Source: Odiellus spinosus (lineage: Eukaryota; Arthropoda; Arachnida; Opiliones; Phalangiidae). From it: a stretch of 64,000 nucleotides of DNA. The stretch is taken from NCBI GenBank assembly GCA_963920705.1, contig CAWUCO010000202.1:292970-356969 (forward strand), written 5' to 3'. Below are positions 4,336-60,383 of this stretch, piece after piece. The translations under genes were made by a program, and so were the position numbers. The notes under the pieces were generated by a model. The model was not told the DNA's origin. It did not search any database and saw only the letters and a program-made list of their open reading frames with translations. The stretch's first letter is position 1; every line of letters starts with the position of its first letter.

Positions 4336-4512
4336 TAATATTGAATCGCATCGACAAAAAATTAGCATGGAAAGCGAAACAATTCTTTAAAGCAAGAGAA
4401 CATAATTATGGAGACCAGAAGTATGTGGCCGTTTACTTTACTCGCCGACATCAATTTTCGTTTCGTATATCCTATTTAACATTCTAAATCTTTATTTTTT
4501 ATTATAATTAAG

Positions 4513-4614: not shown

Positions 4615-4718
4615 TAGTCGCAAAACTCAAGTATTTTAAAAAATAAAGTAGAGATTGAGAACGTTAAACTATAAATTTCATGTGTAATCGAGCACTTGGC
4701 AGGAAATGAAGTCCAACT

Positions 4719-32200: not shown

Positions 32201-34477
32201 CCAATATTAAGAATAGGATAGCGGATGCTGTCTGCTTACATGTACCAGATCCTCAAACAGAATTTATCCTGACTACGGACGCAAGCGATTACGCTGTGGG
32301 CGCTATGCAATCCCAAATACAGGATAACCAGGAAGTCCCGTTGGCCTATTATAGTAGATCTTTTCAAGGGGCAGAAGCAAATTATAGTATACCTGAAAAG
32401 GAATGCCTCGCTATTGTGAAATCTATTGCAAAGATCCATCATTATTTGGAGGGACAACACTTCGCGGTAGTAACAGACCACCAAGCTTTGACTTGGCTAT
32501 TTAGCCTTCGTAATCAGAAAAGTAAATTACTCAGATGGGCTATTGAACTGCAAGAATACAATTTCGATGTCGTTCATTGTGCCGGTAAAGCTAATAGGGT
32601 CGCTGACGCATTATCTAGACCCGTACGGGATCTTGGAAAGGAGAACGCTGTTCCCATAAAGACCTTCCTAGCGGCCTTTTTGGCTGATGACCAACACCAA
32701 GTGGAACCGATAACAGATCGTGATCTTCGCCAGGCTCAAGAAAATGATCCTATATGGTCACCTATATTGTTGAATCTCCGAGCCGGTAGGGATCATGCTC
32801 TCTACGTTTTACAGAATGATATTATTTATAGGAAGAGTACTGCTCATAAAGGATTGAAACGAGTCCTTCCTGCAGCTTTGCATGACAGACTGTTTGATCT
32901 TTACCATAATCATCCTATTTCCGGACATCGTGGAGGTTTGGCCACAGAACGACGAATTTTGGGACGTTTTTATTTTCCTAATTTTCGCCCTCTCATACGG
33001 AAGTATGTCAGGAACTGCTTAATTTGTCAACAGTAGAAGTCCAGGAATACGCAAACACCTGGAAAAATGATTTCTAATACATCCTCTTATGGTACGAACC
33101 AGCTTATTGGGATCGATATGATGGGGCCGCTTCCGTTAACACAATATCAGAATCGTTTTTTGGTCGTCATTGTGGACTATTTTACTAAATATGTCGAGAT
33201 CTTTGCCGTACGAAATATTACGGCGATGACCATTGGTAACATTCTTGTACAATGTGTCTCGTCATGGCTCACCGGAAGCAATATGTTCCGATAATGGTCC
33301 CCAATTTACTTCGGCACTATGGCATCACCTATGTTGTATGCTGAAGATTAAACATGTGTTGGCTCCTCTGACTCTCCCGCCAGGGTGTATGGTCCGGTTC
33401 CCCACCCCCTCGATGGGTCCCTCATACAAGTGGAAGATACGGCGGTAGAACATGATTCGGTAGAGGAGGATTCTAGGTCTTCTTCAACCATTTGCTGTTG
33501 GATTTGTTCGGGACGTAGTTAAAAGAAAAGCACCTATAGGCAACCTTACTCACGCCGTTTCTTATAAATTATTACATTGTGATGGGCGGTTGGTTTCCGT
33601 ACGCTCTTTTCCCGATGTGGATCGGTTTCTCTTTCAGTATCCCGAGTATTCAACTTCGCTCTCTAAAGATTATTTTTTGTTTAAACCTACACCCATCTCA
33701 GGTGCCCCTACGGTATAAGAGAGGTTTAGGGACGCTGGCCAGATGTAATGGGCCGATATTATTGATATTGTATACATTAATGACAATTTTTCTTGATAGT
33801 GGTTTACGGTTTTGGTTGGCCCTCGACGGGTACAAATAAAAGCAGAGGTATCCGAATGTTCCAATACCACCTTGGTTCCTCTTCTGGAAGGCGTTAGTTT
33901 TCGTTCAGTCGACGCCCAGGGATTACAAGCAACGTACGGTGGTCTTGAAGATGTAGTAGTGGAAGAGGGATACGTTCGATTGGAGTCGCCAGTGAAAGGA
34001 AATTATAAAATAATTTATGCAGGCTTCTATAAGCCAGACGAAAAGGCGTATGTCTCCTTGGAAAGAGAAACGTTTAATATCATCACTGGTAGGAAAGGGA
34101 CCAGTACGGATGGACAGTTACTCTTCACCATAACCAATCCAGCACCTCATCCTACTAAACAGGGTAAGCGACCATTAAGGTACTCTGAGCAGAGGCCTCG
34201 TCGTCAACCAGTTAGAAAAGAAAATATGGCACCTAATCAGGGGCTTCGTAGTCAACCAATCAGACCTCGTAGTCAATCTGTGCTAGAACAACCTACCGTG
34301 ATCAATTGTTATAGATATGGTGGACACGGTCATCGTGTCCGGAAGTGCACCTGCCCTCGACGCGTACCGCGCACGAATCATCAACGATTGGCGCATGGAT
34401 TTGGACGTATCTTCGTAACAGAGTTGCCAGTACCAGCTGCCTTTCTGCCTCGTCGACGTGACGAACTTTATTTATAG
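29261..34477 (+). mobile_element. Ty3/Gypsy LTR retrotransposon (fossil)
   Basis: Parts in order: a hydrophobic ORF with three to four membrane-like segments (29261-29731); Gag (~29810-30790) with knuckle CFRCNGSDHFQAEC; protease-like region (~30830-31200); RT (~31430-32030; VYLDDI box); RNase H (~32260-32640; TTDASDYAVGA, TDHQALTWL); integrase zinc finger (~32880-33035; HPISGHRGG, CLICQQ); integrase core (~33100-33340; GIDMMGPLP, CSDNGPQFTSALW). A further ORF (33812-34477) follows with a zinc-knuckle-like motif near 34310. It is broken in about six to eight places. LTRs are not securely seen, so age is not estimated. Confidence 0.9.
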
Positions 34478-37083: not shown

Positions 37084-40000
37084 TCAGAGTTTCGTACGAT
37101 GGTTATTTCCGACATAAATAGATATCGTTTCTCCTAGAACTCGATTGACTCTTTCAGTCAGATCCGATGGAGGATAGTACGGAGTGGTATAAACAGGAGT
37201 TATTCGAAATAACTTGGAAGTATCCTTCCATAGAGTGGAGACAAATTGAGTTCCACGATCACTAAGTATTTGCTTGGGAGCTCCCCATCGACAGATGACC
37301 TTTTTTAGAGCTCTTGCACAAGCGTCAGCAGTCATAGCGACTAGAGGAACCAGTTCGACATATTTGGTCATATAATCACCGAATACTATCAAATATCGAT
37401 ATCCCTTTCGACTGGTCGGGAATGGACCCATTATATCCACGCCAATTTTGTCCCATGGAGCTGTTGGTTCAGTCGACTTTATTAGTCCCGGAGTACGAGT
37501 GTTTCGGATCTTATACTGCTGACACAATAGACATTCTTTGACATATTTCGTGACGTCAGCTCGTAAGGTGGGCCACCAGAATCTGGCTTCTATTTTTGCT
37601 ATCGTTTTATCTCTTCCACGGTGACCAGCAAGAGGGTGATCATGTAGTAAGCGTAGAGATTCTTGTCGTAGTCTTGTGAGAAGATAGATTCGCTCAGGAT
37701 GTCTGCCTATTTCTCTTCTGTATACGAGATTATTTCGTCGTATGTACATTCTGTCTTCGGGAGCATTTTCTCTTGATAATCGTTCGATAATTTCTTCCAT
37801 GCTTGGATCTTCTCGCTGTGCAGTAATGATTTCATTTCTATTGAAGATGTGGAAATTTGCATGTGGAAACGGAGGTAAAACATTCTCCCTTGGATTTTCT
37901 CTATTTTCTTCGTTGTCTGAGATTCGTAGAGACTCTTCAGAAGTGGATAATCCATGAAGTGGCATCACCAACAATTCCAGAGGGGCTCGAGATAAGGCGT
38001 CTGCTACGACATTTTCTACTCCTTTTTTGTGCAGGATTTTAAAATCGAATTTCTGTAGGTACATAGCCCATTTCACCAATCTTGCATGTGGTTCTTTGAG
38101 GGTGAATAGCCTCTGTAAAGCCTTGTGGTCCGTAATTACGGTAAACGGAAGCGTTTCCAAATATGGTCTAAAATATCCAACTGCCCAATAGATTGCTAGA
38201 CATTCTCGTTCTCTGTTGCTATAGTTGGATTCAGCTTTGAATAATCTTCGACTAGCATATGCTATAGGTACTTCAACGTTTTCTTGTATTTGAGACAACA
38301 TCGCTCCTAATCCTGTACCAGAAGCGTCGGTTGTTAGAATACAAGGTATATCCGCTTTGTACGGAGCTAACGATGGAGCTGAGGCAATAGCATCTTTTAT
38401 CTGTTGGAAGGCTTTATCTTGATCTTCTCCCCAACGAATTGGTATATTCTTCTTTTTTAGATGGTTAATTGGAGCTACTATCTCTGAGAAATTCGGAATA
38501 AAGCGATGTTGCCAACCGGCCATACCCAAGAATCTTTGCACTTGTTTTAGGGTTTTTGGTCTTGGAAAATCTTGAATGACTTATATCTTCGACGGGTCGA
38601 TGAATATCCCATTTTCATTGACGATATGTCCTAGGACAATGGCTTCGGGCTTGGCAAAACGACATTTCTTAAATTGGAGTGTTAAGCCAGCGTTCTTCAG
38701 GCGATTCATTACGTATTCCAATGCATTTAAGTGTTCTTCCCATGTTTCGGACGCAATAAGGATATCATCCAGATATACTACGATGGAAAAAGGTTCGCTA
38801 TCCCTGAAGATTTCATCCATTAACCGTTTGAACGTACTCGAAGCGTTGCATAAACCAAAGGCTAATACGTTGAACTCGTATTTACCAGCGTGAGTAATGA
38901 AGGCAGTCTTCGGTTTTGCTTCAGGAGCCAATTCGACTTGCCAATATCCGCTTTTTAGATCCAGAGCTGTAACATATTTTGGTTTTCCCATCTTGTTTAG
39001 GGTTTCTTCAATACGAGGAATCGGGTAAGGATCTTTTATTGAAACTGCGTTTACTTCTCGGAGATCGACACAAAACCTGGTTTTCGTTTTTCCGGTTCCG
39101 GATCCATCATCTTGTTCAATGATGACTATAGGAGAAGCCCATGGCGAGGTAGATGGTCGAATGATGCCTTCCTTTAACATTACAGAAATATGTTCTTCGA
39201 TAAGCCGTTTCTTGGCACCGCTGACTCTATAAGCTCTCTTATTTATCGGTTTCGCATCTCCTGTGTGAATTTCTTGTACGACTAGACTTGTATGTCCTAA
39301 TTTATCACTGAAGAGATCCGGAAAGTTTAGTAAGAGATCCTTTAATTCCTTTTTCTGTAGTTCTGGTAAATTGGTCGCTTCGACTGCTTCTGTTACATTT
39401 TTCACCATTATAGGAGATGGGGGTCCTTTATCTCTGGACCATCCGATGAAATTTAAAGTTTCTCCTTGAATCGAGCAGGTTAAATTTTTAAAATCAATTT
39501 TCATTCCCCAATCTTCTAAGAAATCTTGACCAAGAATGGCATCGCATAAAAGAGACGGTACGATATGGAATTCATGGGTGAACATCCGGTTCTGTTGATT
39601 CTCAAAAACAAGTCCAAGAGAATGGATCCTATAGTGAAGGTATATCTTTCATCACCCATGACGATACATTCAGATATCTTCTCATAAGGGATATATGACT
39701 CGCCTCTATGCTGTCTTATTTTCATCCATTGGTCGGCACTAATCATAGATACTTCAGCTCCGTTGTCTATCCTGGTGTTCAGTTTTCCATGTTCGAAGAT
39801 TGTCGTAATAGTATGAGGTTTTCTTCTCTGCAAGCCCCGTCTTCGTCGTATTGCTGTTAATTGAGATAGTTGAGGCCTTGATGCAATACGATGGATTTTC
39901 GTTTGGGCTATTGGTTTGGCGCGGGAGGGCGTTGGCCCAGTTGTTGGCCTCCCGCTCCGATGTTTTCTGGACGAGTCGCTCTGACTGATGGACAGTCTCT

Positions 40001-40252
40001 CGAGAGATGACCTCTTCCGTTGCAGGTGAAACAAGTAAGATTTGGTTGTAAAACTGTAGGTCTCGTCGGATATGATTGTCCTTGTGGTCGAGTAGATGAA
40101 GGAGTAATTATTCTTGGTGACCTTGATGGAATTCTTCGAGATCCTTGAAGATTTGATTGTCCTGTTCTTCTTCCAGCGGTGTTCGACTGAGTTTGTCTTG
40201 TCCTTTGTTCTACTACTGGATATGTTTGAGGAGCTGGTTGTGGTTGAATCAT
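37084..40252 (-). mobile_element. Ty3/Gypsy LTR retrotransposon (fossil)
   Basis: Reading leftward: Gag tail (~40252-39930) with knuckle CFTCNGRGHLSRDC; protease region (~39800-39500; RIDNGAEVSMIS); RT (~39250-38580; FCVDLREVNA, LDLKSGYWQVEL, VVYLDDILIA); RNase H (~38340-37980; TTDASGTGLGAML, TDHKALQRL, VADALSRAP); integrase zinc finger (~37640-37510; HPLAGHRGR, CLLCQQ); core (~37460-37110; GVDIMGPFP, LSDRGTQFVSTLW). The pol part is long and well preserved, with about two breaks. The Gag start and LTRs are not identified. It is a different Gypsy lineage from 29261-34477. Confidence 0.92.
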
Positions 40253-40810
40253 ATATCCTGTTTCATATTGAGGTACTTGTTCAAAGGGACCAGGAGTGGT
40301 AGGTCGAACTTGCTGAAATGTATTCGATAATACAGCCGTAGGTTGCTGTTGTTGATAGTTTAACCATGATGCTCACGAATGGCACGAGGCAGATAATTAA
40401 AAGTCCGTGAAATACCGTAACGCGTTAAAGTAATAGTTCGTTTAATCTAAAAAGTTCCGATAAATACCGTCACGCGTTAAAATAATAGTTCGCTTTAATC
40501 TAAAACGTCCGAGAAAGACCGTCACTCTCGTTAAAGGAATAGGGATTTATCGGGTAAAATACAATTGGCGAATGGAGAAGAGAGAATTGTCAGAGAGATA
40601 CTGAAAAACTGCTCAAGAAAATGTGGAGAATGGAGTATAAAGAGCTGCCTTATATACTTCTTTTTCATCCAATATCTCATAAGAGATTTCAACACAAAGT
40701 AAGCCTCAAATGAGAGAAGCCAGCTCAACCCAATATGCCTGGAGTTAGATGAGTTCCTAGCTTTGTTTGTATGCCAAAGAGGTATTTGGTTATTGAAATT
40801 GAGACTCAAC
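40253..40810. repeat. Region upstream of the minus-strand Gypsy, with a ~60-bp tandem repeat
   Basis: ATACCGTMACGCGTTAAA, TAATAGTTCG and TTTAATCTAAAA recur about 2.5 times at ~40410-40535. GTATATAAGG on the minus strand near 40655 resembles a TATA box and may mark an LTR promoter. No second LTR copy was found. Confidence 0.45.
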
Positions 40811-41229
40811 GGCGCCTAAAGGTATGAGAGTTTAACATGAGAGCCAACGAAAACTAATCTCTCACTTGTCAATGCTGTCAAATCTACGCACCTTTCTATC
40901 TCTATTTAATACACCACACCATTGAAGCCGTTTACCACTGCCTTTTAGGGGCTTCGCAAATGAGAGGTCATCGAAAAGCTCAAAAATGTGTGTCCTTCAA
41001 AAAGACTCGCTTGACGCTCGGAATTAGAATTCAGCGCCCTCAAAGGCTTCATCTCGTTTCCACGAGGCAAAAAGACCCAGGGATAGATGGGCTGTAAAGG
41101 GCACACGCTGAATTATGCATTCTTCTTAAAGCATATATGGGGTTATGGGCCCATCCCTTCCTACCTAAGCTAGCGAATGAAGTATTAGCCTCGCTTCGGA
41201 TTCAAGTCAGCGCGCTGGAAGCCAGGGGC
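40811..41229 (+). repeat. Foldback complex, repeat X copy 1
   Basis: It starts GGCGCCTAAAGGTATGAGAG and ends GGAAGCCAGGGGC. It matches 43314-43745 in the same orientation over ~420 bases (TTTACCACTGCCTTTTAGGG, GGGCCCATCCCTTCCTACC). Confidence 0.85.
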
Positions 41230-41645: not shown

Positions 41646-41663
41646 GGTCCGTAGCGTCGTAGC

Positions 41664-43390
41664 TTTGACACCATTGAAAAGTGAGAGATTAGTATTCGTT
41701 GGCTCTCATGTTAAACTCTCATACCTTTAGGCGCCGTAGAGTCTGGATTTCGCTAACCGTTTCTTTTATGATTCTTTTGACAAAAGATTTTAGTTTATAA
41801 TTTAATTTTAACTATTAACGATATATATTTAAGATTCATTTTATATCAGGTTATAAAGCTTATTTTTCTGCACATTATGATATGATTATTTTTAATTTAA
41901 GTTCATTTTAAGATTTACAGGAATTCACTTAATTTTACATTAAAGCGAGCTTTTCAATGATTTTCACGAGCTCCAAATAGAAATTAAGTATCAATTTCGT
42001 GAAGATCGTTAACAAAAACGATTCAAATATGTATGGCATGGAAAAAATTACCCGTAGAGTAAAATATATATTCTACATATTTGTTTATTTTATTAAATTA
42101 TTATCAATTTAAGTATAAAATCGGATCAATCATATTATATCAGCGAATATTATATTCATTTTTACTGTACTGGTATGTTTTCATTGGCATATGTATTTTG
42201 ATTCGTTTCGTTAACGATCTTTCCGAAAATACTACTCAAAGTCTAGTTGGAGCTCTTTAAACTCATATTTTTAATTAGTTTCATATTAGGTTTTTCAGTT
42301 TATTTTTTCTGCACATTAAGATATAATTATCTTTTCATTACGTGTCTTCACTGTCAGCTAAAAATGGAACTGCGGCTTTTTAATTTCTTTTCGGAATCAC
42401 CATGCCAAAAGTATCTTATTCGATAATTTCATCACCAATTTTAGACACGATTTTGGTTTTTAAACTAATCTCTAAAGTATGGTTAAATTTGAATGTAAGT
42501 GAAGGATGAAATCAAACCAAATACTTCACTGACATAAATTTAACAAAACTTTAGAGATTATTATAATATATATAATTCACAAGGAGACCTTGTAATTCAA
42601 CATTGTCGGAAAAGTATATGAGATTCTGGTCTTCGAGATTGTAACCATACACTAAGTACGACTATCTGGATTAAGTACATTCACGAAAAAGACCGCGCGA
42701 AAGCGACCTGATCACGTGTCAGAACGTGTGAGAATCAACCACAGGGTTTTATGATAGGAAAATTGGAAATATGAAAGTTTCCATGGATTTAGACATCAAT
42801 ATCAAATTTTATTTATCCTAAGCCATAATCTTGGTTCAAACATGGATAAATAATAACTTAAGGATTAAATATTAGTCGTAAAATGATTGATGGTTTTGGT
42901 TAAATCTATTTTATCCAAAGAAAGATCTATTCCACGTTTCTGTGATTAAAATATTTTCTAAACTTTGGTTAAGTTTGAATGTAATATATATTTTATTCTA
43001 CCGGTAATTTTTTCAATGACATATATTTTGAATCGTTTTTGTTAACGATCTTCACGAAATTGATACTCAATTCCTATTTGTAGCTCGGGAAAATCATTGA
43101 AAAGCTCGCTTTAATGTAAAATTAAGCGAATTCCTGTAAATCTTAAAATTAAATTAAAAATAATCATATCATAATGTGCAGAAAAATAATCTTGATAACC
43201 TAATATGAAATTAATCTTAAATATATATCGTTAATAGTTAAAATTAAATTATAAAGTAAAATCTTTTGTCAAAAGAATCATAAAAGAAACGGTTAGCGAA
43301 ATCCAGACTCTACGGCGCCTAAAGGTATGAGAGTTTAACATTGTGTATTAATCCGCCAACGGAAACTAATCTCTAACTTGTCAATGCTGT
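41664..43390. mobile_element. Foldback complex, large palindrome
   Basis: Left arm ~41664-42075 and right arm ~42985-43390 are reverse complements (GTAGAGTCTGGATTTCGCTA at 41736; TTGACAAAAGATTTTA; CTGCACATTATGATATGATT; GATCGTTAACAAAAACGATT). The outer 70 bases of each arm are the start of repeat X. The loop contains a third, diverged part of the arm (~42170-42335). It is non-coding. Confidence 0.8.
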
Positions 43391-43745
43391 CAAAGCTAAG
43401 GACCTTTCTATCTCTATTTAATACACCACACTATTGAAGCCGTTTACCACTGCCTTTTAGGGGCTTCGCAAATGAGAGGTCAGCGTTGTCAGCCTGTCAC
43501 CGAAAAACCCAAACATTTATGTCCTTCAAAAGACCTTCGCTCGACGATCGGAATTAGAATTCAGCGCCCTCAAAGGCTTCATCTCGTTTTCACGAGGCAA
43601 AAAGACCCAGAGATAGATGGGCTGTAAAGTGCACGCGCTGAATTATGCATATATGGGGTTATGGGCCCATCCCTTCCTACCTAAGCTAGCGAATGAAGTA
43701 TTAGCCTAGCTTCGGATTCAAGTCAGCGCGCTGGAAGCCAGGGGC
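43314..43745 (+). repeat. Foldback complex, repeat X copy 2
   Basis: This is a direct copy of 40811-41229 that shares its first bases with the right arm of the large palindrome. 43746-43992 after it contains nothing recognised. Confidence 0.85.
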
Positions 43746-45228: not shown

Positions 45229-45514
45229 ATTATACAAAAAAGAGGTTGCTTCGCATCCTTAAAAAAAGCTCTTTATTTAACTCGAATCAAACCCGTGAAG
45301 GGACACAAATTAATTGTTAGAGAAAGAGCAATTTCATATCTTTAAAATTATAGTTAGTAGATTTAGTCTACTACTTCAAAGGTTTTATTATTATTATATA
45401 TTTTCCAAAAAACGGATAAAGACGACCTAGGAAACCTACCTCTCTTATTGATGTTATTTTTAAATTCTATCAGTATCACAAATAAAATTAGCTAAAGATT
45501 AAGTTCCTTTAATG
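45229..45514. mobile_element. Partial copy of the 3252-3749 MITE
   Basis: One arm (ATTATACAAAAAAGAGG ... AAACGGATAAAGACGACC) and the loop are present in the orientation opposite to the 3.2-kb copy. The second arm is missing. Confidence 0.8.
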
Positions 45515-46385
45515 TAATTTTCAATCACCGAAATTTAACTTTATAAAGCGAATTGCCGATTTTTAATTGTATTTTTAAGTATTTGTTAGATATAATTTAA
45601 AAAAGGGATACTAGGCTCTGGAAACAATTTATTTTAAGCAATTTGAACTGGTAAAACAAGACTAAAAATATTACAATTTCCCAAAGTCTTAAAAGATATT
45701 TGAGGCTAATTATTGAAATTCCGAAATTAGTCTCAAAGAAAATTAAGAATATTTTTTTAAAACGAGTCAATTTCTTGAGGAGCGTATGAACCGAAAGAGA
45801 TGTTTGTAAGAAATAGATGACGATATTCAAATCCCCACTAAATAATAATAGTGTTTGACTAATTAGTACCGTAGGAGTTCCGAAAATACTTAAAAAAATT
45901 TACGACAAGTAGATATGTGAAATTATAAAAACTCTATATTAAAATCACATAGAGTTCCAACCCAACCTAACCTAACTTAACACAACCCAACTTAGCCCAA
46001 CCCAAACGTAACCTAACCAAAACAAACCCGTCCTAGCCTATTACAAGCCTATGAGATTTGAAAGTTTCTTCTGCTGGTCGTAGATTTTGTACCCCGATAT
46101 GGCCAATTCCCATTTCGCCCAATCTCAATTGCCTCAATCCAAACTATCCCATTCCAAACTGGCCCAATTCCCACTTAGCCTTATTCTTTTAGCCCACACC
46201 CAATCGTCCCAATTTGATAATTTTTTCAATGAAAGGCATTTTCAACGCTCATTTTATATTCAGTTCGGTAAAATATATTTTTTATTTAAGTATTATTTAA
46301 CTATCATAACACTAACCAAACCCAGCCCAACCTAACCGAACCCAACCGAACCCCACTAAACCGAATCTAACACAAACAAACCTTA
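45515..46385. other. AT-rich stretch with AACCYAAC-type tracts
   Basis: Degenerate CCTAACC/CCCAACC runs occur at ~45960-46045 and ~46316-46385. Between them (46090-46200) are repeated phrases TTCCCATTTCGCCCAAT and CAAACTGGCCCAATT, related to the element at 27416-28156. No gene. Confidence 0.55.
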
Positions 46386-46733
46386 CCGTTATCGTTATGT
46401 ATTTATCTTGGATACCCGTGTGTACGCGGCTTTATACCTAATCTTGATTTTTCTTTGATACGTCTGAACGCGGATTTATATCTAATCTTTATTAATTTAT
46501 CTTGGATACCCGTGTGAAAGCGGCTTTATATCTTATCGTTATGTATTTATCTTGGATACCCGTTTTATTTATTAATTTTTAACTTAGATACCCGTGCGAA
46601 CAGGCATTTATATATTATTTTTGTCATTTTATCTTGGATACTCGTGCAACGGGACTTAATATCTATTCTTTATTAAGTCATTTTTTTGGAAACGCGTCTT
46701 TATATCTATTCTTTATTAAGTCATTTTATCTTA

Positions 46734-47584
46734 TTAAAGGAAGACTATTAGCTGAGAATTTCACACCGAAATTAATTTATACCCTGATTCATTGTAATTA
46801 AATATAACCTCCTGAATTTTTTCACAATTTGTAAAACATTATTTCGGCAAGCATTCATTTTTTAAAACTTCGTTAGGCTTAGCTATGGGAGCGGATTTTT
46901 AAACTGTTGCCAAGAGGCCAATTAGAGCACTTCTAAGAATGTCTATGAATAGTAAGCAACGGTTATGCCAGGTTTAACATTGCCTATCACTACGAGCTAG
47001 CTATTACACCATTGCTTACTAGCCTAAACCATAGCGTCCTCGATCACGCGCTTCGGCGGAGCTCGTGCTAATTTTCAAATCTCGTGAAAAATACAACTTA
47101 CAATACAAATTACGCTGGAGATTCAGACAAGGCTTAGATTTTCAATTAGGAAATTGAATCCTACTCAATTTATCCGCCTTAAAATTACCTACGTTTAAAA
47201 TATAAAGAATGTGAACAATCTAACAGGCGACACATTATGAAATTGATCTCAAAATTACGGGACACGGCTAGTCTTCGTAAAGATCAGGTAAAACATAATA
47301 TTGATTGTCGCTAAAATGATTAACCCTAATCTTCGGTGAAACGCTCGACTAGACTACATCACAATTACGTAAAAAGCTCGTGAGAATGGCCGTCTTTTTC
47401 ACGTCTGCTGATTGGCCTCTTGGCAACAATGAGAAATTCAAACACATGTTTACGATATAAAACTTTAAAAAATATTTTCTTATAGAATTTCTTCACGAAA
47501 AATTATGAAAAAATCAGGGAGGCATAGTTTTTCACGAGGAATCAGATAAAAAATACTTCATTTCAGCTAATAGTATCCCTTTAA
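46734..47584. mobile_element. MITE-like insertion in the left arm
   Basis: The left end TTAAAGGAAGACTATTAGCTG is mirrored by CAGCTAATAGTATCCCTTTAA at the right end. The tandem array resumes on both sides and the right arm at 57 kb lacks it, so this is an insertion. Confidence 0.7.
46905..47428. mobile_element. Second MITE nested inside the first
   Basis: TGTTGCCAAGAGGCCAATTAG at 46905 is mirrored by CTGATTGGCCTCTTGGCAACA ending at 47428, one mismatch in 21. It is 524 bp and non-coding. Confidence 0.7.
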
Positions 47585-48285
47585 GTCATGTATCTTGGAT
47601 ACCCTATGAACACGCCTTTATATCTAATCTTCATTAATTTTTACCTTGGATACCCTTGTGAAGGCACCTTTACATCTCATCTTTATTGTCTTATCTTGGA
47701 TACCCGTGAAAACGCACCATAATATCTATTTATTAATTAATTTTATCTTGAACACATGTAAAAACACGCCTTTATCTAATCAACCTATAAGAAAATATTG
47801 AATCTCTTCGAAAATATCTTTTATATTAAATTAAATTTTCAGCAAGATTGGTTTTTAGATTAAGTTAAATCATTTTATCTGTTTTAATTTTAATTTAAAT
47901 GAATATTACGTTTCAATTCAGTAAAAGCTATAACCTCAGAAGGCTAAAATAGACGCGAATCCAAAAGATACTATATAAGGCGTTCGTTGATTATTATAAA
48001 TTAACAAGCGAGTACCGGTTGCTGCTCTTCACTGAGCTGTGGTGGATATACGTTTACAGCAAGGTAGAAGCTAATAACTGTATATGCGAATTTTATTGGA
48101 GATTCAAGCGCCGTGGGTGATGATGTCTTCTTCCGACGTCACGTGCAGACACTAAAAGTTCACTCGGAGAGGTAAGAAGACGAAAGTTTTCCGATTCGAT
48201 GACGTATTTCGTCTTCTTGCACAACGCCCACGCCGACGCCGCAGTGAACACAGTAGCTAGACCCCACTAGGGTTGGGTCTAGCTA

Positions 48286-49093
48286 AAAACAGTCAACTTC
48301 AACTTGAAAATCGTCCGATCCTCTTCATAGTAACGCTCCCCACATTTCTAAGTAAACAATTCCTAGAGATAAAGGAAAGAGTAGGTTCATACGCGCTGCC
48401 AAATTAAGTTGAACTACAGAGAGTGAACCAGGTGCGGGCAAATGCTCACCAAACGCGCGTAAAGCGAGGCCCTCAATAACCCTATAAATAAAAAATTCTT
48501 AAGGATAACGGATAGGGTAAGTTTTGTACGCGCTGCACACTGTGGCGGAAAGACGGGTTGCTATCTAGATTCGAAACCTTATTGTAAATTGGCACCCCTG
48601 CTGAGAAAATCTCCAAAAATACTCAGAAATTACTCTGATCACGTGGTATACCACTTTGAAGGAGGGTGGCGACATCTGGTGGCGAAACAGTTTATAGTGC
48701 CTTCCCCTCTAAATTTTTCCCCCTTCATCTTTTTAACAATCCCCTATTTTAAGGATGGGTTAATTCGAGGAATAAACTAACCAAACCTAGCCTTACCTAA
48801 AATATTACAAATAGCCCGAGCTAAGGATTAACTAGTTGGAGGGATTGGCTAATTAGAGGGATTATCTACCCTAGCCTTACCTAAAATATTACAAGAGGGA
48901 CGGGTGAGGCCGAGCTATGGATTAAATTTTTAATATTGAATCGCACCGACAAAAAATGGGCAAGAAAGGCGAAACAACTCTTTAATGCAAGAGAACATAA
49001 TTCAGGAGACCAAAAGTACGTGGCCGTTTATTTAACTCGCCGACATCAATTTCCGTTTCGCCTATCCTATTTAACATTGTAAATTTTTATTTT
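48286..49093. other. Loop between inverted copies, with dispersed repeat
   Basis: It is flanked by TAGCTAGACC...GGTCTAGCTA sequences. ~48740-49090 matches ~4130-4500 (CCTTACCTAAAATATTAC, TTAACTCGCCGACATCAATT). Bases 48667-48684 resemble a CTCF core. No gene. Confidence 0.6.
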
Positions 49094-49335
49094 TAGCTAG
49101 ACCCAACCCTAGTGGGGTCTAGCTACTATATTCACTGCGGCGTCGGCGTTGGCGTCATCGAATCGAAAAACTTTCGTCTTCTTACCTCTCCGTGTGAACT
49201 TTTAAGGTGCGTTTACAAAGGCGCGAGAAACCGAAAAAGTCGAAGCTGAAAGCGTAGAGATGAAGCGTATTTCTTTTTACGCGAGAGATTAAACGTTGCG
49301 CGTTTTGCTCATAGAGAAAAAAAGAAAAAGACAGA

Positions 49336-50486
49336 ATGTTGAAGGCGTCTTTGAGGCAAAAGGATATTGATAAAAAAGAAACTTTGATAAATGTGATAAT
49401 TAATTATCCAATGTTATGGGATAAATCCCACAGGGATTATAGAGATAGACATTTGCAAAATGTAAATTGGGGTCAAGTGACTGATGAAATGAAAATGCCC
49501 GGTAAGCGAAACAAATTATGTTTTAAAAAGGCGAAATTATAGATAATGTTTTCTAGTTAAAGATTTAAAAGGTATGTGAAAATACTTAAAGGACCAATTC
49601 AGGGTAAATTTTCACGCTATTTCAGCCAAAAAATCTGGTCAAGAATATGTAGAAAACGATGCCGATCTTGTGAAATGGCCTTTTTTTAAACAATTAATGT
49701 TTCTTAAGCATGTAGTGACGAGACGAGAGTATGTTATCAATTATTCCGACTTTAGAAACTACCAATGAAACTACTAATGAGATAAATTTGATTAATTTAG
49801 TATAACCTCGAACATTGAAATTGCTTCAAATGCTCATGACAATGAGACGTCGAATGAAGCAGATAGTGTAATTGCAATTACTTAAATTAATGGCAATTAA
49901 ATTATTAATAATTTAAGCCTTTAAAACTAGCTGTTCGCCAAAATTGGAAAAGAAGTTGATTTGGTCGTAGTGGAAGATATAACTTTGAATCAAGATTAGG
50001 ATGTATTTACTGATGGAAATTTGCCTTCAACTTCTAATAATAAACTTCTAATAATAAACCAACAAGGTCGTCAACTGCGCAACCCCCTAAGAAAAGACGT
50101 CGTTCTGACCATTCAGAAATTGTTGATATTGAGGAAAATATTTCAAAGGAAATAGACAAGGTTGATGGGTATGGGAATAAGGTTCAAAAATGGATAAGGG
50201 ATGTAGTTTTATTAGAATTAATCCCAACATGTCTAATTACAGTCTTATTGCTGCAAGCCTTGCGCATAAATGTGAAAAAAATATCGAAGGTAAATCAGAG
50301 ACAGTTTGTAAATATTTCGCAGATCTTTTGAAACTGGTAAATGTTGATCTACAAAGACGGTGTGAAATTGAAATGGCAGAAGTAGTGGATAAATATATTG
50401 AGATATCTAAACAGCAGGCCGAGAAACCACAAATGGTCACACCTTGTCAACCCGACCCCCACCGATTTGGTTCAAATTTGGTGTAG
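49336..50486 (+). pseudogene. Harbinger accessory protein, MADF domain
   Basis: The first exon from ATG 49336 gives LINVIINYPMLWDKSHRDYR and NVNWGQVTDEM, the first half of a MADF (Myb/SANT-like) domain, ending at a GGTAAGC donor (49501/49502). The second half resumes around 49595-49720 with LKDQFRVNFHAISAKKSG and VKWPFFKQLMFLKHV, the MADF C-terminal helix. A third stretch (50190-50460) encodes FADLLKLVNVDLQRRCEIE. Such proteins bind the element ends and carry the transposase to DNA. In-frame stops around the presumed introns and phase changes between the pieces suggest it is decayed. The inner transposon begins at ~50473, within or just after the last exon. Confidence 0.65.
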
Positions 50487-50966
50487 GGGGTTTTCATCAT
50501 CGTAGAAACCGAATTCCCGGGTATTTTTTCAATCGGACAAGTAGTTTCTGAGATACAGAAAGTCACCATTTGCTGAAATGGCCTTGACCCCTAAACTTTA
50601 ACAAGGTATAACTCTGGTAATTATTGCGCGATATTCATGATTTAAAAAGCATTTTAAAGCGTAAGAAACGTTTTATATACGTACGCGATGGAAAATAAAA
50701 TATATAAATTTCTAACCCGCAATATCAGTGGTCAAACCATTTGACCTTTGGCTTTAACCTCAAGTTTAAATTAAAAACAACATTTTATTTCGAATTCCCC
50801 GTGTGTGATTTACCTGAAAATAGTGAAAACCAATTCTATTATTTCTAGTTCTCGAGATATTTTATGTTCATTTTACCCCACAAATGATATTTATTGTTTA
50901 ACATAGTATTAGAATACAAATCAATCAAACACGTATCGTGCCATTGCTAGTTCAACTTTATCGTTA

Positions 50967-53900
50967 TCAGCACCTTTTAACGTGTATTTTGAGCGGGGCA
51001 AGTACCACACTAGGACTCTGAATTTGACATATAATGTTTTCTGGTAAGACCCAGCTTTCATCTTTAATAAGGGGCCAATAATAAGTATTGGAATTGAATG
51101 GAGGGTACATGAATGAAACCAAATAATCTTCACATTCATTTGAAAATTCCTTCACTATTCCAATATAGCATTTTTTTCCATAAACACAAGCAACAACTGT
51201 TTCTAACGCAATATCATCTGAGGCAGATTCATCAATTTTTTTCCATAAACACAAGCAACCAATGTTTCTAACGCAATATCCTCTGAGGCCGATTCATCAA
51301 TAATAACACTTGAACTGCTGAAAATTTTCATTTCTTCCATTGAGGAAAGGGGTGCGGCTTTAATTTGGATTGAGTTAAAAGGAACAAACTTATGAAATCG
51401 ACGAGTGCCTTTTATAGTTTTTGCTTTGAAAAATCTTTCTTTCAAAAAATTTGCTTTTTCATTTATTTCGTCATTGGAGACGTAGAAAAATGTAATATTT
51501 TGGAAAGCAGAAACGCTGAAGTCAAACATGTCTTTAGCAGCCCATATTTGACCAGATATTGGACGTTTTAGCTGTTAAGCGCTTCACTGTGCCTCCAATG
51601 CCATCACATGGACCTTTTCCGTGTGAGAAGGCAAAAAATGCCACTCACAATCTATGTCAAAATCTTGTTTGTGATGACAAATATTACAAAAGTTAAATTT
51701 GTTTTTGTATTGCGCGGCACAACCATCAGTAAAATACACAAGTTTTTTAAAATTAGGGATCCCATCTTTCAAATATGTAATTAATTTAGACTGAAATGTG
51801 TATACTGTGCTTGTAGAATGTGATCTGGTATCACTAATCATACACACATTTTTATGTTTTAAAGGCTCCATTAAAATATCTCTGTAGTAAACCACAAAAG
51901 GATGTAAAATAGCTTGAGAATTTTCCCAATGAAAACCTTGCACCTCATCTTTGAATGAGTAATTTTCTGAAAAATCGCCTATAACGATAGCAGTTTCAGG
52001 TTCTATAGATTCTTTCAAAGACTTCAAATATTGTGACTGGGATTTTGATGTTAAATGATGACAAGTAAGTTCGAGTATTTTAATAGAAAAGGTTTGCAAG
52101 AAGTCTTCTGTAGATTCCGACATAGTAATAAGATTAGTTTTGTCTGACGAAACCCATTGTTTATATTCAATTTTTTTAAATCGTCTAGCATAGTGCGAAG
52201 AAGTTCATTATTTAGTATCCCATTATTTCCTGGACAGTTTTTACACCACCTCATCATGCATTGTCTATTTTCAACGTTGCAAACAGTAAGAGCCATAACA
52301 TCAGAAACTGAAAGGGTGTTTTCTTTTGGTAAGGCTAGAACCATTAATTTCATAATCTGATGGTAGGTGCACACACATACCGAATGTGTGCCCTTAGGTC
52401 CAGCCAAAATACACCAAGGAGGACGTAATGAACAGAAAGTAGAAAAACCAACAGGTGCATTCCCCTCTTCTTTATATTTTTGATGGAGTTCCTTTAGGTT
52501 CAGTAAAAGTCTCTTCTGTTTATGTTCTTTTATACCAGTTATTTTGTTTCTCACGGAAACGTAATCCTTTTGACCAGGGGTCATTCTGCTGTAGTCATCA
52601 AGTTGATAAAAATTCGAAATAGCAACTTTAGACTCATTGCTTATTCTAAGTCCTTTTGATTGGCAGCCAGGAAGACATAAAATTCCTTTTTCTTTTTTCA
52701 ACTGTCGACTTCGTTTCACCAAATACCTTGAGGCTCCGAATCGTTTTGCGGTTGAGCTGATACTGAATGGTGAAAGTGATAAAATCTTCAACTTTTCAGA
52801 ATATGAAGTGTTTTCAGCGTTAAACTTTGTTGTTAACTCGACCATCATGCTTTCATATTGCAAAATAACTCTGTACATTTTCCAATCTACCCACATTACT
52901 TCGGGTGTATGGACTTTTGGCATTACCACTTTTAAATTTAAACTATTGAAAAGAAATGTAAAAACCCTATCCTCTCTTTGCTTCTGCATCTCGGGCAGGA
53001 AACGACCCAACAAAAGAAGCCCGGCGCTGGTGGTCTCTCTCCCGGTCAAACGGAAAACCCTCCGGTGACCGGGAGCAGACTGCTGGCGCCAAAGGTTTCC
53101 GGTCAAGTTCCGCCCACCCCGCGAGAGGTGAGAAGCGACCAGAGAGGATAGGATAGGATTAGATTCAAATTCAACGTGAACCTCGGCGGGCCAAAATCAG
53201 TGCCACTCTCGCTAAAGCGAAATATAAATAAAACTTTGAAACTCGTTCTAAAGAACATAGTCGTTTGTGTTTCATTTCAAAAACGCGGGACTTAGAAAAT
53301 TTCCCATAATATCACGATAGAAAAACCTACGCGAATGTTTCAGTCCGTTCGCGGTAGTTAAAATTACAAACAAGACTCTCCCAGTCAGTCAAATCAAGAG
53401 CTAGAACATAAAGAACCAGGGTTCGGATTAAAAAAACCGTATAGAGGATAGTCACATTAACCAAATATTCTTCTCATATAATGCATGTTCTTTGAGTTTG
53501 ATTTCAACATATTCGGGATCCTGTACCTCTTGTAGAGTCACGTCACAAGTTTCTTCCAATTTCTCTTCAAAGTACTTGATGCAGAATCATACTTCTTTTT
53601 TGCTAAGCTTTGTAAGCCTCGTAGGTTTAGTCCCCCTGTAAATTTTATACAATATTCAAGCCCCAAACAACTCATAACGTACTTTAAATTCTTAAACATA
53701 CTTTTTTTTTAATATGAGATTGCTTGAAGAATTTTCCTATGTTTCTGTAAAGTTTGTACTCTGGGAGAGCTTAATTTTACTTAATTCACCGACTGAAAAA
53801 TGAACTAAGTTTTAATATTTCTGTTTTTTTCTGTTTTTAGTTTTAAATAAAACGACTAAGTTACTTCCACTCCTTTCTTACGTAGTTGTGAAGTTTACAG

Positions 53901-54082
53901 CTATTTGAACACTTAAACTGCTTATTGGAATATCTTTTCAAATGCAACTGTTCGTGATGCAAACAAATGGTTTTAATAGTTTTTCTAGGAACTCCCGTTC
54001 GTAAACTAAGTAATATTTTTTCTTTTCTCATTCGAACCTCTTTCAAATCAACTATCAGGAACGTTGTCAAAAGAACAGGCAT
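50967..54082 (-). pseudogene. Transposase-like protein of the inner transposon
   Basis: Pieces in order: a Cys/His N-terminal exon (54082-53861; ICLHHE, FKCSNSCKLHNYVRK); a linker (~53720-53430; GGLNLRGLQSLAKKKYDSA); a central region (52960-52170) with LPGCQSKGLRISNESK, MTPGQKDYVSVR and GTHSVCVCTYHQ; and a core (~52160-51560) with VIGDFSENYS, QGFHWENSQAILHP, ISDTRSHS and FTDGCAAQYKN. SHGKGPCDGIGGTVKR follows in a shifted frame near 51600. The tail is VACVYGKK...WPLIKDESWVLP, chromo/Tudor-like. Acidic residues in DFSENY and TDGCAAQ are candidate catalytic residues of an RNase H-like fold. The family resembles uncharacterised proteins seen in arthropods and cnidarians; I cannot name the superfamily. 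At least three phase shifts and a 67-bp tandem duplication (51175-51305) show it is dead. Confidence 0.65.
52966..53455. mobile_element. Small insertion in the inner transposase gene
   Basis: CTATCCTCTCT at the left is mirrored by AGAGGATAG at the right. The block is GC-rich near its left side (CCGGTGACCGGGAGCAG) and separates the KEHALYEKNIWLM part of the gene from the FLFNSLNLKVV part. A second mirrored copy of the end phrase at ~53140 makes the exact right border uncertain. Confidence 0.5.
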
Positions 54083-54839
54083 CCATCACGATTCCAAAAT
54101 TTTCACTATCCGGAAATGCCAGACATCCAAGCAGACTAATCTAAAAATTAGAGTTCGAGGGGCTGAACATATTACTTAATATCTCGATAACTAGAAAGTA
54201 TAGATTTGGATTTCACTATTTTCAGGTAAATCACACACGGGGAATTCGAAAAAAATGTTATTTTTTATTTAAACTTGAGGTTAAAGTCAAAGGTCAAATG
54301 GTTTGACCACTAATATTAAAGGGTAGAAATTAATATATTTTAATTTTAATCACGTACATATATAAAACGTTTCTTACGCTTTAAAATGCTTTTTAAATCA
54401 TGAAAATCGCGCAATTATTACCAGAGTTATACCTTGTTCAAGTTTAGGGGTCAATGCCATTTCAGCAAATGGTGACTTTCTGTATCTCAGAAACTACTTG
54501 TCCGATTGAAAAAATACCCGGGAATTCGGTTTCTACGATGATGAAAACCCCCTACACCATATTTGAGACAACGATTCTTGAAAAATTTGTAATATTTTAA
54601 TATTGGTATCAACCTCATTAATGTTTGTATATACTGAATGAACAAATTTTTAACACATTTAAAAGAATTCTTTTATTTCTTTAAACACCACCACCAAAAT
54701 CCATTATTTAAGTTTAGAGTTTTCAGTTAAAAATGTTTGTCACAATCTGATATGCTTGCTCTAGAATTTGACTTGAAAGGGCCTCCATAAAAGGTACTTA
54801 GTCGCTTTAAAACATTTTCTTATAGCTTTGAGATATATT

Positions 54840-56739
54840 TTAACGATTTACACCTGGCATATCCCACTGCCATGGAACTGCACCTTCCTCTGACCAAAAA
54901 TAATCAGTGTAGATTTTCCTGCATTTTTTAGCTGCTTCCGTCGAATTTCTCGCTGTTGAGCCTCTCAGATTTAATAGAGCATTGTCACGCTCATCATTCC
55001 AAGCGCCATATTGGTAGTTCCCAAGGCTATCCGTAAATCTGCAAACCCAGGAGGGCAGTACACCTTTTGAGACTTTTTTAGGTGTTTTTCTTTCGTGATT
55101 AGGTAGTTGTGAAGCACAACTGTTGCTTTTATTACTCTTTCAGCATTCTCAGGTGCAAGGGTTATTGTTCGATGGTATATCTTCCACCTCGCCCCCAATA
55201 TTCCAAAGGCATTTTCACTGCAGCGCCTAAGTTATGATGGACTTAATTGTATTTAATATATATTAATTATTAAAGAGAGAGTCAAATCTGACACCAAATG
55301 ACTTTTAAAATAACCCTAATTCTTTGGCAAAAACAAGCAAATACGTAATTAGAAATCTAGTTTTATTTTTAAAAGTAGACTTATGAAGTTATGACTGTAC
55401 TTGGCGTTTGCTTATATACCTAAGCCTACTTTCTGAGTAAGTTCAGATGAAAAAAAAAAACAATTGTCAGACTTCACCCACTCTTTGATGCAGTTAAATA
55501 AATGGGATAAATGGGTGATTTTAAATATTTTGCTTTATAATACCCACAAGAAAGTAATTACCTGGCTCTACTCAGACGATAATTAAAAACTCGAGATTTA
55601 GAATTTAATTCCTTTGATGAATAGGGCCGCAAGAAATTTTCTTCTAGTTGAAAGGCTTCATCACCAACGAATAAATAGGGCGCGGAAATCTCACTTCTCG
55701 GTAATTTTGATGGGGATGGCAAACCCAGAGTTTTATTTTCTAGCGCAGAACCAATTGAAGAACTTTTAAAAATGTCACCATCAGAATTAGAGCGAAAACC
55801 TCCTATGTCAACAGCTAGAAATTTGTACTCAGCATCCACAACTGCCATGAGCACAACAGAGTTTGTACCCTATCAAAACTATTTATTAATATATCTCTGG
55901 ATATATTGTATAAAAATATTTACCTTGTAGCTGTAGTACATTGAACCACTGTTTGCGGGTTGTTGGATTAACACGTGCTTACCATCAACAGCACCACAGC
56001 AGTTTGGATACTGATATACTCGTCCATATCCATAATCAGCATCTTTCCAAACGTTTTCGGTTGGTGCCTGAAATTCATCATCAATTAAAATGATTTAGAA
56101 AACAAATAAAAGCTACATTTACTTTGAGGTAGAGTGGCTGTAAAACATCCCATAAGGCATCGCACGTCTCTTTGACTAAAACGTGGGCAGTAGCTTTTCC
56201 AATGCGGAACCCATACGCAATGCTCATGAGACTGTCACCAGTTGCCAAGAATCTGCGCAAAAAACACAATAAGAAATTAAAAAATTTTAAAAGAAATATT
56301 TACATTACCCGAGAGTGACAGCTAATCTATGAGCTGGTGAAAGAGGCTCTCAAGGTACCGGATTTTTTTTCAAACGAACAGCCAATAATTTCACTAATTC
56401 GTCAAATAACTGCGGCGACATACGGACGAAATTTTTAAAATTATCGTGGTCAAATTTTCTCATCTTTTGAAGCTACAAAAGAAACCAAATTTCGTTAAAA
56501 ACACAGGTAAAATTCGAAAAAAAAAATTCATTTGATAAATCTTAAGCCTTTGGCCTTTTTACTATGTACTTACCAATGTATGAAAATAGCCTTCAGTAGT
56601 CCTTTGTCTCCATATTGGGTGGACCCACGTACGACGTTTCATTCTACGTTTTAACTTCCGTAGTTTAATTAATCTTTGTTGTTTCAATAGTAACAATTTC
56701 TTTTTCATGAGAAGCAAATTAAGAACAGTCGACGCCATT
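54840..56739 (-). pseudogene. PIF/Harbinger DDE transposase, six exons
   Basis: This cuts and joins the element ends in the nucleus. Exons with good splice sites: 56739-56573 (start MASTVLNLLLMKKK, donor GTAAGT); 56473-56312 (FVRMSPQLFDELVKLL); 56253-56123 (FLATGDSLMSIAYGFRIGK); 56068-55924 (CCGAVDGKHVLIQQP, first catalytic Asp); 55869-55563 (VDIGGFRSNSDG, LFVGDEAFQL, second Asp); 55229-54840 (CSENAFGILGARWK, catalytic Glu; VVLHNYL; RDNALLNLRGST). All three DDE residues are present. Exon two contains one TGA (56350-56352) where arginine CGA is likely, and the frame shifts once near 55.0 kb, so the gene is freshly inactive. Its partner is the MADF protein encoded at the other end. Confidence 0.9.
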
Positions 56740-56938
56740 TTTGTTGTTTACTTTTTATTTTCAAGGCTATCGACTAAACCACCATCTGTCAGCTCTTTTG
56801 TAAACGAAACAACGGGAGGCTCAAGCGGGGAGATAAAGCTTTCCTCAGACTCAGAATTTCACGCGCGAGATTTAAAAATTTTTTAATCGTCATCTACCAG
56901 CTTACGCTTCTACTAAAAGTGCCTTTGTAAACGCACCT

Positions 56939-57960
56939 TTAGTTCACGGAGAGGTTCTGTCTGTTACGTCATCGAATAGGAAAAATTTCGTCTTCTTACC
57001 TCTCAGAGTGAACTTTTAGTTCGCGGAGAGGATCTGTCTGTACGTGACGTCGGAAGAAGACGTCATCACCCACGGCTCTTGACTCTCCAATAAAATTCGC
57101 ATATACAGTTATTAGCTTCTACCTTGCTGTAAACGTACATCCACCACAGCTCATTGAAGAGCAGCAACCGTTACTCGCTTGTTAGTTTATAATGATAAAC
57201 GAACGCGTTATTTAGTATCTTTTGGATTCGCGTCTATTTTAGCCTTCTGGGGTTATAGCTTTTACTGAATTGAAACGTAACATTCATTTAAATTAAAATT
57301 AAAACAGATTAATTTAATCTAAAAACCAATGTTGCTAAAACTTAAATTTAATATAAAAGATATTTTCGAAGATATTCAATATTTTCTTATAGGTTGATTA
57401 GATAAAGTCGTGTTTTCACGGGTGTTCAATATAAAATGAATTAATAAATTTTAGATATTCACGGGTATCCAAGATAAGACGATAAAGATTAGATGTAAAG
57501 GTGCCTTCACAAGGGTGTCCAAGGTAAAAATTAAAAAAGATTAGATATAAAGGCGTTTTCGCAGGGTATACAAGATAAAATGACTTAATAAAGAATAGAT
57601 ATAAAGACGCGTTTTCAAGATTAAAATGACTTAACAAAGAATCGATATTAAGTCCCGTTCGCACGAGTATCCAAGATAAAATGACAAAGATAATATATAA
57701 ATGCCTGTTCGCAAGGGTATCAAAGTTAAAAATTAATAAATATTCGATATTAAGCCACGTTCACACGTGTATCCAAGATAAATTAATAAAGATTAGATAT
57801 AAATCCGCGTTCTGACTGGTATCAAAGAAAAATTAAGATTAGATATAAAGCCGCGTACACACGGGTATCCAAGATAAATACATATCGATTAGATATAAAG
57901 CCGCCTTCACACGGGTATCCAAGATAAATTAATAAAGATTAGATATAAAGACGCGTTCAC
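56939..57960. repeat. Right inverted arm of the foldback-like structure
   Basis: From ~56980 to 57960 this is the reverse complement of the left arm. The inner unique part is followed by ~10 tandem units (CGTTCACACGGGTATCCAAG, then ATTAGATATAAAG) at 57410-57960. The inner end carries two tandem copies of GTGAACTTTTAGTT/GTTCACGGAGAGG sequence, one of which received the Harbinger. Confidence 0.85.
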
Positions 57961-57974
57961 AGGTAGCCAAGTTG

Positions 57975-58925
57975 AAAAACATGATTTGAAAAGCGCGATT
58001 CGAAAAGCGCGATTCGACGAGCGCGATTCGACGCGCGCGATTCGACGCGCGCGATTCTAAAAGCGCGAGTCGACGCGCGCGATTCGACGCGCGCGATTCG
58101 ACGAGCGCGAGTCGACGCGCGCGATTCGACGAGCGCGAGTCGACGCGCGCGATTCGACGAGCGCGAGTCGCAGCGCGCGCGATTCGACGAGCGCGAGTCG
58201 ACGAGCCCGATTGGACGAGCCCGATTGGACGAGCCCGATTGGACGAGCCCGATTGGACGAGCCCGATTGGACGAGCGCGATTGGACGAGCCCGATTGGAC
58301 GAGCCCGATTGGACGAGCCCGATTGGACGAGCGCGATTGGAAAAACGCGATTGGAAAAACGCGATTGGAAAAACGCGATTGGAAAGGCGCGATTGGAAAG
58401 ACGCGATTGGAAAGGCGCGATTGGAAAGACGCGATTGGAAAGGCGCGATTGGAAAGGCGCGATTGGAAAGGCGCGATTAGAAAAGCGCGACTGGAAAGGC
58501 GCGATTGGAAAAACGCGATTGGAAAAACGCGATTGGAAAAACGCGATTGGAAAGACGCGATTGGAAAGGCGCGATTGGAAAGGCGCGATTGGAAAGGCGC
58601 GATTGGAAAGGCGCGACTGGAAAGGCGCGACTGGAAAGGCGCGACTGGAAAGGCGCGACTGGAAAGGCGCGATTGGAAAAACGCGATTGGAAAAACGCGA
58701 TTGGAAAAACGCGATTGAAAAAACGCGATTGAAAAAACGCGATTGGAAAAACGCGATTGGAAAAACGCGATTGGAAAAACGCGATTGGAAAAACGCGATT
58801 TTAAAAAACGCGATTTTGAAAAACGCGATTTTTAAAAACGCGATTTTTAAAAACGCGATTTTGAAAAACGTGATTGGAAAAACGCGATTGGAAAAACGCG
58901 ATTCGAAAAACGTGATTCGAAAAAC
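57975..58925. repeat. 14-bp minisatellite, ~68 units, open in all six frames
   Basis: The unit is GATTGGAAAAACGC with zoned variants: GATTCGACGAGCGC (~57975-58205), GATTGGACGAGCCC (~58205-58340), mixed GATTGGAAAAACGC and GATTGGAAAGGCGC (~58340-58800), a 15-bp form GATTTTTAAAAACGC (~58800-58870), then the 14-bp form again. No unit creates a stop in any phase, so long open frames (up to 325 codons) appear on both strands; these are not genes. CpG is dense here, unlike the surroundings. Confidence 0.95.
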
Positions 58926-59306
58926 TTTACGCAACTTCGTGTTTAAAGGAATCTCGAAACGCCATTCAAATTGTTCAAAGAGCGTTTATACATGTATAAC
59001 AAGCCCCTGCTATAGCATAATTCTTTTCAGCCTCTTTTACAATGTCATGGGTCTAGCTATTCCTATGGGCTTGACCATCTTGTTTAATATACTTTGTTAT
59101 GAGGCAACAAACTACGTTTAGATTTGCTTGACTTTTATTAGCGACGTGTCATAAGTTAAGAAACATTTATACAACAGATTTTGTAACAACGCGATCTCCT
59201 TTTATATTTCCATGCTTGGGGCAATCTCATTGCCTCTTCACCTTTGCCCCGTTTATCTATCGTGTTGTGTTTACATGAGTCTATATCGCTTGAGTAACTA
59301 CAGAAG
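58926..59306. other. Stretch without a gene
   Basis: AT-rich sequence between the minisatellite and the LINE. Nothing is recognised. Confidence 0.5.
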
Positions 59307-60383
59307 GTGTACATGAATATATATATACATCTAGCACATGTAACATCTTTCTTTTCCGATAAAATTAAAATCGTTCTTACAGTAACTTCGGTGGAAGGAA
59401 CCCTAAGTAATGAGAAGTCAATGACTTTCGGGGTGCCACAAGGAACAGTTCTAGGCCCAATTCTTTTTCTAGTTTATATAAACGATATTTGTAGTTTGAA
59501 TATAGATGGTAACCTAACCGCGTTCGCAGATGATACCACTCTGGTCTTCGAAGGTAATACTTGGTATGAGGTATTTACAAAAGCTCAAATAGGACTAGAT
59601 ATAATTTATAGTAAATTAAAAGAAAACTTATTGTCGTTAAACATATCTAAAACTAAATACCTCTGTTTCTCCTCCAGACTAGAAGTAGATCATGATTACG
59701 ATTTAATTATACATGACAGTTCTAATGGTCACGAATGTGGAATAAACTGTCAGAAAATACAACGTTTAGACCGTATCAAGTTTTTAGGTATAATAATTTA
59801 CCAGAATTTGAAATGGAACTACCATATAAATAATGTTATATCTAAACTACGCATCTGTCTACCACGCTTTTATCTATTAAGAAATTTTCTTACAATAAGA
59901 TGGCTCAAAATAGTATACTTCTCACTGGTTCAATCCATAGCTACATATGGTATCATAGGCTGGGGAGGTACCTACTGTTCTTATATGGAACCTTTAGGTA
60001 TAATGCAAAGAAAAATAATAAGAATTTGCTTAAAGCTTCCTTGGTTAACCCCCCGACACATATTATATAATAACTTTAAAGTTCTTTCTATCCGCCAAAT
60101 TTATGCTAAAAATATTCTAATACATATGTTTAAAATAAGAGACTTTTTACCCTCCAGAAATGTTACATACGCTACACGATATGTTACTGACGGGAACTTA
60201 GTTAGTAGTACAACCAATAAAACAATTGGCCAGAAACATATTAGTTACCTAGGTCCAAAACTTTATAACAATCTAAACAAACAAATTAAAGAACATACTT
60301 CAATTACCTTATATAAAAAAGATATTTTAAGCTGGCTAATCGAGATTGGTACCTTGCATTTGAACTTTCTGTTAGATAACTAG
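59307..60383 (+). CDS. LINE reverse transcriptase, C-terminal two thirds
   Basis: This uninterrupted 358-codon frame carries the late RT motifs: GVPQGTVLGPILFLVYINDI (block with the template grip), AFADDTTL (catalytic Asp pair), NISKTKYLCF, FLGIIIYQNLKWNYHI, then the thumb/C-terminal region SIATYGIIGWGG and MQRKIIRICLKLP. The first RT blocks and the endonuclease are missing, so the ATG at 59307 is not the native start. The open frame suggests a fairly recent insertion. The clade is probably CR1/Jockey-like; an exact clade needs a tree. Confidence 0.88.
   Translation: MYMNIYIHLAHVTSFFSDKIKIVLTVTSVEGTLSNEKSMTFGVPQGTVLGPILFLVYINDICSLNIDGNLTAFADDTTLVFEGNTWYEVFTKAQIGLDIIYSKLKENLLSLNISKTKYLCFSSRLEVDHDYDLIIHDSSNGHECGINCQKIQRLDRIKFLGIIIYQNLKWNYHINNVISKLRICLPRFYLLRNFLTIRWLKIVYFSLVQSIATYGIIGWGGTYCSYMEPLGIMQRKIIRICLKLPWLTPRHILYNNFKVLSIRQIYAKNILIHMFKIRDFLPSRNVTYATRYVTDGNLVSSTTNKTIGQKHISYLGPKLYNNLNKQIKEHTSITLYKKDILSWLIEIGTLHLNFLLDN

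Follow-up and report, generated by a model that had tools for sequence, protein, structure and literature searches.

A nest of mobile elements inside a hairpin-like foldback structure in Odiellus spinosus

The foldback structure

The window analysed here, a 64,000-nucleotide stretch of contig CAWUCO010000202.1 of the Odiellus spinosus assembly GCA_963920705.1, contains a locus that consists of nested mobile elements and is largely real, with a hairpin-like foldback as its outermost level. The left foldback arm lies on the plus strand at 46388-48289 and is followed by a loop of about 800 bp (48290-49089), overlooked in the preliminary description. The right arm, on the minus strand, comes in two pieces, an inner one (49090-49204), which pairs with 48153-48289, and an outer one (56942-57978), which stops at a 14-bp minisatellite. 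Inverted arms with tandem units had been described before, and the units of about 50 bp and the alignment of the arms bear this out, but the right arm begins at 49090 and not at 56980, breaks after 49204 and resumes at 56942.

Self-comparison of the 64-kb window (E<=1e-6, matches of at least 45 columns listed) pairs 47581-48206 with 56965-57588 in reverse orientation (645 columns, 87.8%), 46391-46732 with 57572-57889 reversed (348 columns, 85.1%) and 48153-48289 with 49090-49204 reversed (137 columns, 80.3%). Once 46738-47584 is taken out of the left arm and a PIF/Harbinger element out of the right one, the arms are collinear and identical at 930 of 990 bases (93.9%), with 141 gap columns in 24 gaps. 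Their outer parts are arrays of the ~50-bp units, and the motif GGGTATCCAAGAT, allowing up to two mismatches, is found 19 times in the window, 16 of these inside the arms; the average over 100 shuffles is 1.25. At the inner end of each arm there is also a near-palindromic 32-mer (48254-48285 and 49094-49125), the two being exact reverse complements of each other.

The locus thus shows what is looked for in a foldback element, a middle domain enclosed by long inverted arms that contain tandem repeats. At their outer ends the arms do not match, the right one extending about 93 bases further when followed to 57985, and a search for a target duplication at these ends was negative (best score 4.5, below that of random placements), so that this copy is incomplete or rearranged at its ends; its true ends may have been lost. 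Given the lack of a target duplication, foldback is used here as a structural term and not as proof of family membership.

The loop contains a reading frame (48463-48780) in which Pfam recognizes no domain. Part of it (48754-49094, ending a few bases from the border between loop and arm) has a second copy, 87% identical, at 4147-4499, and apart from this the only foldback sequence elsewhere in the window is short pieces of arm unit around 3122-3152, including 25 bases at 3128-3152 with a 96% match to the unit. Further inverted repeats lie near this second loop copy, at 3252-3749 and at 4716-5328 / 5931-6556, and an arm of the palindrome that spans 3252-3749 occurs again at 45229-45516 (91-95%). 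The minisatellite that directly adjoins the right arm (57983-58923, about 67 copies of the consensus GATTGGAAAAGCGC) was considered as a derivative of the arm units, and this was not supported, with 123 of 1000 shuffles scoring at least the 19 of the boundary stretch and 651 of 1000 at least the 12 of the unit.

Elements inserted into the arms

The best-supported level of the nest is a decayed PIF/Harbinger element at 49205-56938 in the right arm. It is flanked by TTA on both sides (49202-49204 and 56939-56941), just inside of which lie terminal inverted repeats identical at 18 of 18 bases, and it has pieces of both of the genes expected of such an element. A piece of a MADF domain (PF10545) is encoded on the plus strand at 49315-49539 (E=1.4e-8, 35.4 bits, cut-off 22), and pieces of DDE_Tnp_4 on the minus strand at 55561-55869 (PF13359; E=1.4e-10, 41.5 bits, cut-off 24.8) and, below the curated cut-off, at 54971-55231 (E=6.5e-5). 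With MADF on the plus strand at the left and DDE_Tnp_4 on the minus strand at the right, the two genes converge.

When the flanks are joined with a single TTA kept, their alignment to the arm unit next to them continues across the junction and scores 95, where 500 shuffles reach at most 25. They also match the left arm (score 98, best of 500 shuffles 26), here only to two bases past the junction, because the left arm does not have the stretch that follows. The earlier claim of a Harbinger with exact TTA borders in one arm is therefore confirmed by the flanks, the ends, the two domains and the restored site.

The left arm had been described simply as an inverted arm, which it is, but it holds a separate element that the preliminary description missed. 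This is an 843-bp insertion at 46738-47580, bounded by TTAA at 46734-46737 and 47581-47584 with matching inverted ends. The TTAA on both sides at inverted ends is the target duplication looked for in piggyBac/Kolobok-like elements. Behind these ends follow diverged inverted repeats, identical at 135 of 174 aligned bases with 29 gap columns, and the reading-frame list includes no frame of at least 100 aa within the insertion. With the element removed, the array of the arm continues, the joined site having 17 extra bases compared with the other arm.

The long-TIR element and its presumed transposase

Inside the Harbinger, between its two genes, lies a DNA element of about 4.1 kb with long terminal inverted repeats (TIRs), on the minus strand at 50472-54566; a plus-strand reading frame (50181-50486) enters its left end. 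The TIRs (50472-50861 and 54178-54566) match at 93.6% over 390 columns in the window self-comparison, which agrees with the ~390-bp inverted ends first reported. That each TIR should be the best match of the other had been set beforehand as one of the points on which this reading could fail, and each has the other as its sole partner among the matches listed. No target duplication above chance was found at the borders of the element. The best candidate, a pair of 8-mers that differ at one base, scores 5.5, and 8 of 60 random placements do at least as well.

The element contains a broken gene (minus strand, 50967-53586) made of several overlapping or adjoining reading-frame pieces, with an internal 65-bp tandem duplication at 51170-51301 (94% alike). 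That its product is a transposase is presumed from its location, flanked by the long inverted ends, and from stretches resembling motifs, among them VIGDFSENY and YFTDGCAAQYKN, which to the eye resemble RNase-H-type catalytic strands. Pfam-A gave no match above the curated cut-off for six pieces of the gene, including those of 291 aa and 44 aa (best E 0.012); NCBIfam gave a single match for three pieces, far under the cut-off (E=0.071), and the sequences of the PDB nothing better than E 0.75 for two. The MULE transposase domain likewise had no Pfam match above the curated cut-off in the six pieces, although in a gene this broken a decayed domain could escape recognition. By tblastn, no relatives were confirmed in viral_contigs (4 pattern matches for the 206-aa piece, 22 for the 291-aa piece) or, for the 291-aa piece, in genome_contigs (84 pattern matches). 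An AlphaFold2 model of one piece, made without an alignment, was uninformative (mean pLDDT 37.5), and a literature search with three peptide strings returned no paper.

The nested locus as such is judged to be ordinary, with no mechanistically unusual feature, and its least ordinary part is this presumed transposase, for which neither Pfam nor NCBIfam nor the sequences of the PDB offer an above-chance match. Unnamed proteins similar to it are presumably present in many invertebrates. That the element might come from a eukaryotic group of DNA transposons missing from the domain libraries is a speculative and rather unlikely suggestion.

A GC-rich segment within the presumed gene

The preliminary description placed a fourth level in this gene, a small insertion at 52966-53455 with readable borders. 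This was not upheld, as no target duplication above chance was found for that span (at least 10 of 40 random placements do as well as the best score, 8.5) and the region is covered by a frame-compatible GT-AG intron. On the minus strand, the span 52943-53461 has GT at 53461 and AG ending at 52943, the AG being preceded by a pyrimidine-rich tract; the reading frames on either side are joined in phase, as worked out by hand. Both these signals and the missing target duplication speak for an intron of the long-TIR gene, an intron that may itself contain a GC-rich insert.

Against it, a lone frame-compatible GT-AG pair is weak evidence, and the composition of the segment stands out. At 52970-53149 the GC content is 61%, compared with at most 42% in 323 windows across the rest of the long-TIR element, and only 16 of 3191 windows of the whole 64 kb exceed it. 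A 9-bp inverted pair (52967-52975 / 53443-53451) also lies near both ends and was equalled by 4 of 2000 random pairs of 24-mers, the borders for this comparison having been chosen after the pair was seen. The same 9-mer occurs once more at 53143-53151, where it is part of a 12-bp stretch inverted relative to 52966-52977, and for this reason the 9-bp pair does not define the borders. We give the intron and the insertion equal weight, and the two are mutually compatible, so that either or both may make up the fourth level.

Comparison with known systems

The plan of the outer structure is close to that of Tetris, a foldback of Drosophila virilis which has long inverted arms with internal tandem repeats, an inner domain, a variable non-coding middle and no transposase of its own (PMC4079207). 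Tetris also has units of ~220 bp, an outer flanking domain and target duplications of 8-10 bp (PMC4079207). Measured against these features, the present foldback shares the arms with tandem repeats and an inner domain, the non-coding middle and the lack of its own transposase, and it differs in its ~50-bp units and in that an outer domain and a target duplication were not found.

This likeness bears on whether the outer structure is a transposon. The arms could instead stem from ordinary tandem-repeat DNA that was duplicated in inverted orientation and received transposon insertions later, and the lack of a target duplication at unequal outer ends would fit such an origin, as would the recurrence of part of the loop apart from the arms, save for the 25-base arm-unit match nearby. 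A tandem outer part, a unique inner part and a non-coding, variable middle are nevertheless the very plan of Tetris, and several more inverted-repeat structures occur in the window; a plain inverted duplication is thus an improbable source of the arms, and the foldback element is the preferred reading.

The inserted elements can be compared with two better-known groups. PIF/Harbinger elements have TTA on both sides, from a 3-bp target duplication of TTA/TAA, short inverted ends, a DDE_Tnp_4 transposase and a separate MADF (Myb/SANT-like) gene. The present copy has all of these features and differs only by its decay, its genes lying in short frame pieces with the 4.1-kb element between them. 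Mutator-like elements are cut-and-paste transposons with long TIRs, a target duplication of 8-11 bp and a MULE transposase. With its ~4 kb, its ~390-bp inverted ends and one long gene, the inner element resembles them. It is unlike them in that the pieces searched gave no above-chance match to a Mutator or any other transposase domain. Its best candidate for a duplication of 8-9 bp, 8 bp with one mismatch, does not rise above chance.

Order of the insertions

The order of insertion, foldback, then Harbinger, then long-TIR element, follows from containment and, for the Harbinger, also from the joined site. The TTAA element is younger than the foldback and is unordered with respect to the other levels. 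The preliminary description had the order of four insertions readable from the junctions, which is too strong. The joined site of the Harbinger and the containment order stand, but the long-TIR element, whose best target-duplication candidate is no better than chance, owes its place in the order to containment only, and the fourth level is uncertain; the two levels with readable junctions are the Harbinger and the TTAA element. The four-level nest is accordingly retained as foldback, Harbinger and long-TIR element by containment, with an uncertain fourth level and with the overlooked TTAA element added.

TTA and TTAA are known target sites of such transposon families. On their own they are too short to outscore random placements in the target-duplication test, and they count as evidence only since they lie exactly at inverted ends and agree with these target sites. 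Divergence between inverted repeats amounts to 6.1% (standard error 0.8) for the arms, 5.5% (1.2) for their non-tandem part and 6.3% (1.2) for the long TIRs, and it indicates no age difference between arms and long TIRs; with the outer and inner levels equal in this respect, divergence alone could not have given the order. The locus is in this sense a worked example of nested junctions ordering the insertions at one site while the divergence of inverted repeats fails to do so.

An assembly artefact joining repeats from separate places, which a window this rich in repeats might invite, is scarcely credible, as an arm unit with TTA present once is regained when the flanks of the Harbinger are joined, and the arms differ by ~6% throughout, unlike the outcome of a misjoin.

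Starting from what can be read directly in the DNA, namely the inverted arms, the flanking TTA and TTAA, the restored Harbinger site, the position of one element within another and the broken reading frames, we consider it very probable that an old foldback was later hit by the TTAA element and the Harbinger, and the Harbinger then by the long-TIR element. The starting point would have been an old, apparently non-coding foldback with inverted arms of ~1.05 and ~1.15 kb, tandem units of ~50 bp and a loop of ~800 bp. A TTAA-targeting element would have inserted into its left arm, and a two-gene PIF/Harbinger into its right arm at TTA; the long-TIR DNA element would then have entered the Harbinger between its two genes. 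Each element would have moved by cut-and-paste with the enzyme of its own family, and the nest is presumably inert today. Two elements are worth adding to a repeat library of the host, the foldback with its ~50-bp tandem units and the long-TIR element with its gene unmatched in the libraries.

Other features of the window

In the region 46000-60000, ARAGORN found no tRNA, and the five Rfam matches with E<=0.5 were all under their gathering scores. Elsewhere in the window there are long reading frames at 447-2299, 11408-13146, 30115-33036 and 37084-40262, which by eye look like copia, BEL/Pao and two oppositely oriented gypsy-type retroelements. A stretch of ~1 kb at 14592-15582 is its own reverse complement at 84%, and a direct pair (40788-41229 / 43291-43745, 85%) encloses most of an inverted pair (41660-42072 / 42983-43398, 91%).
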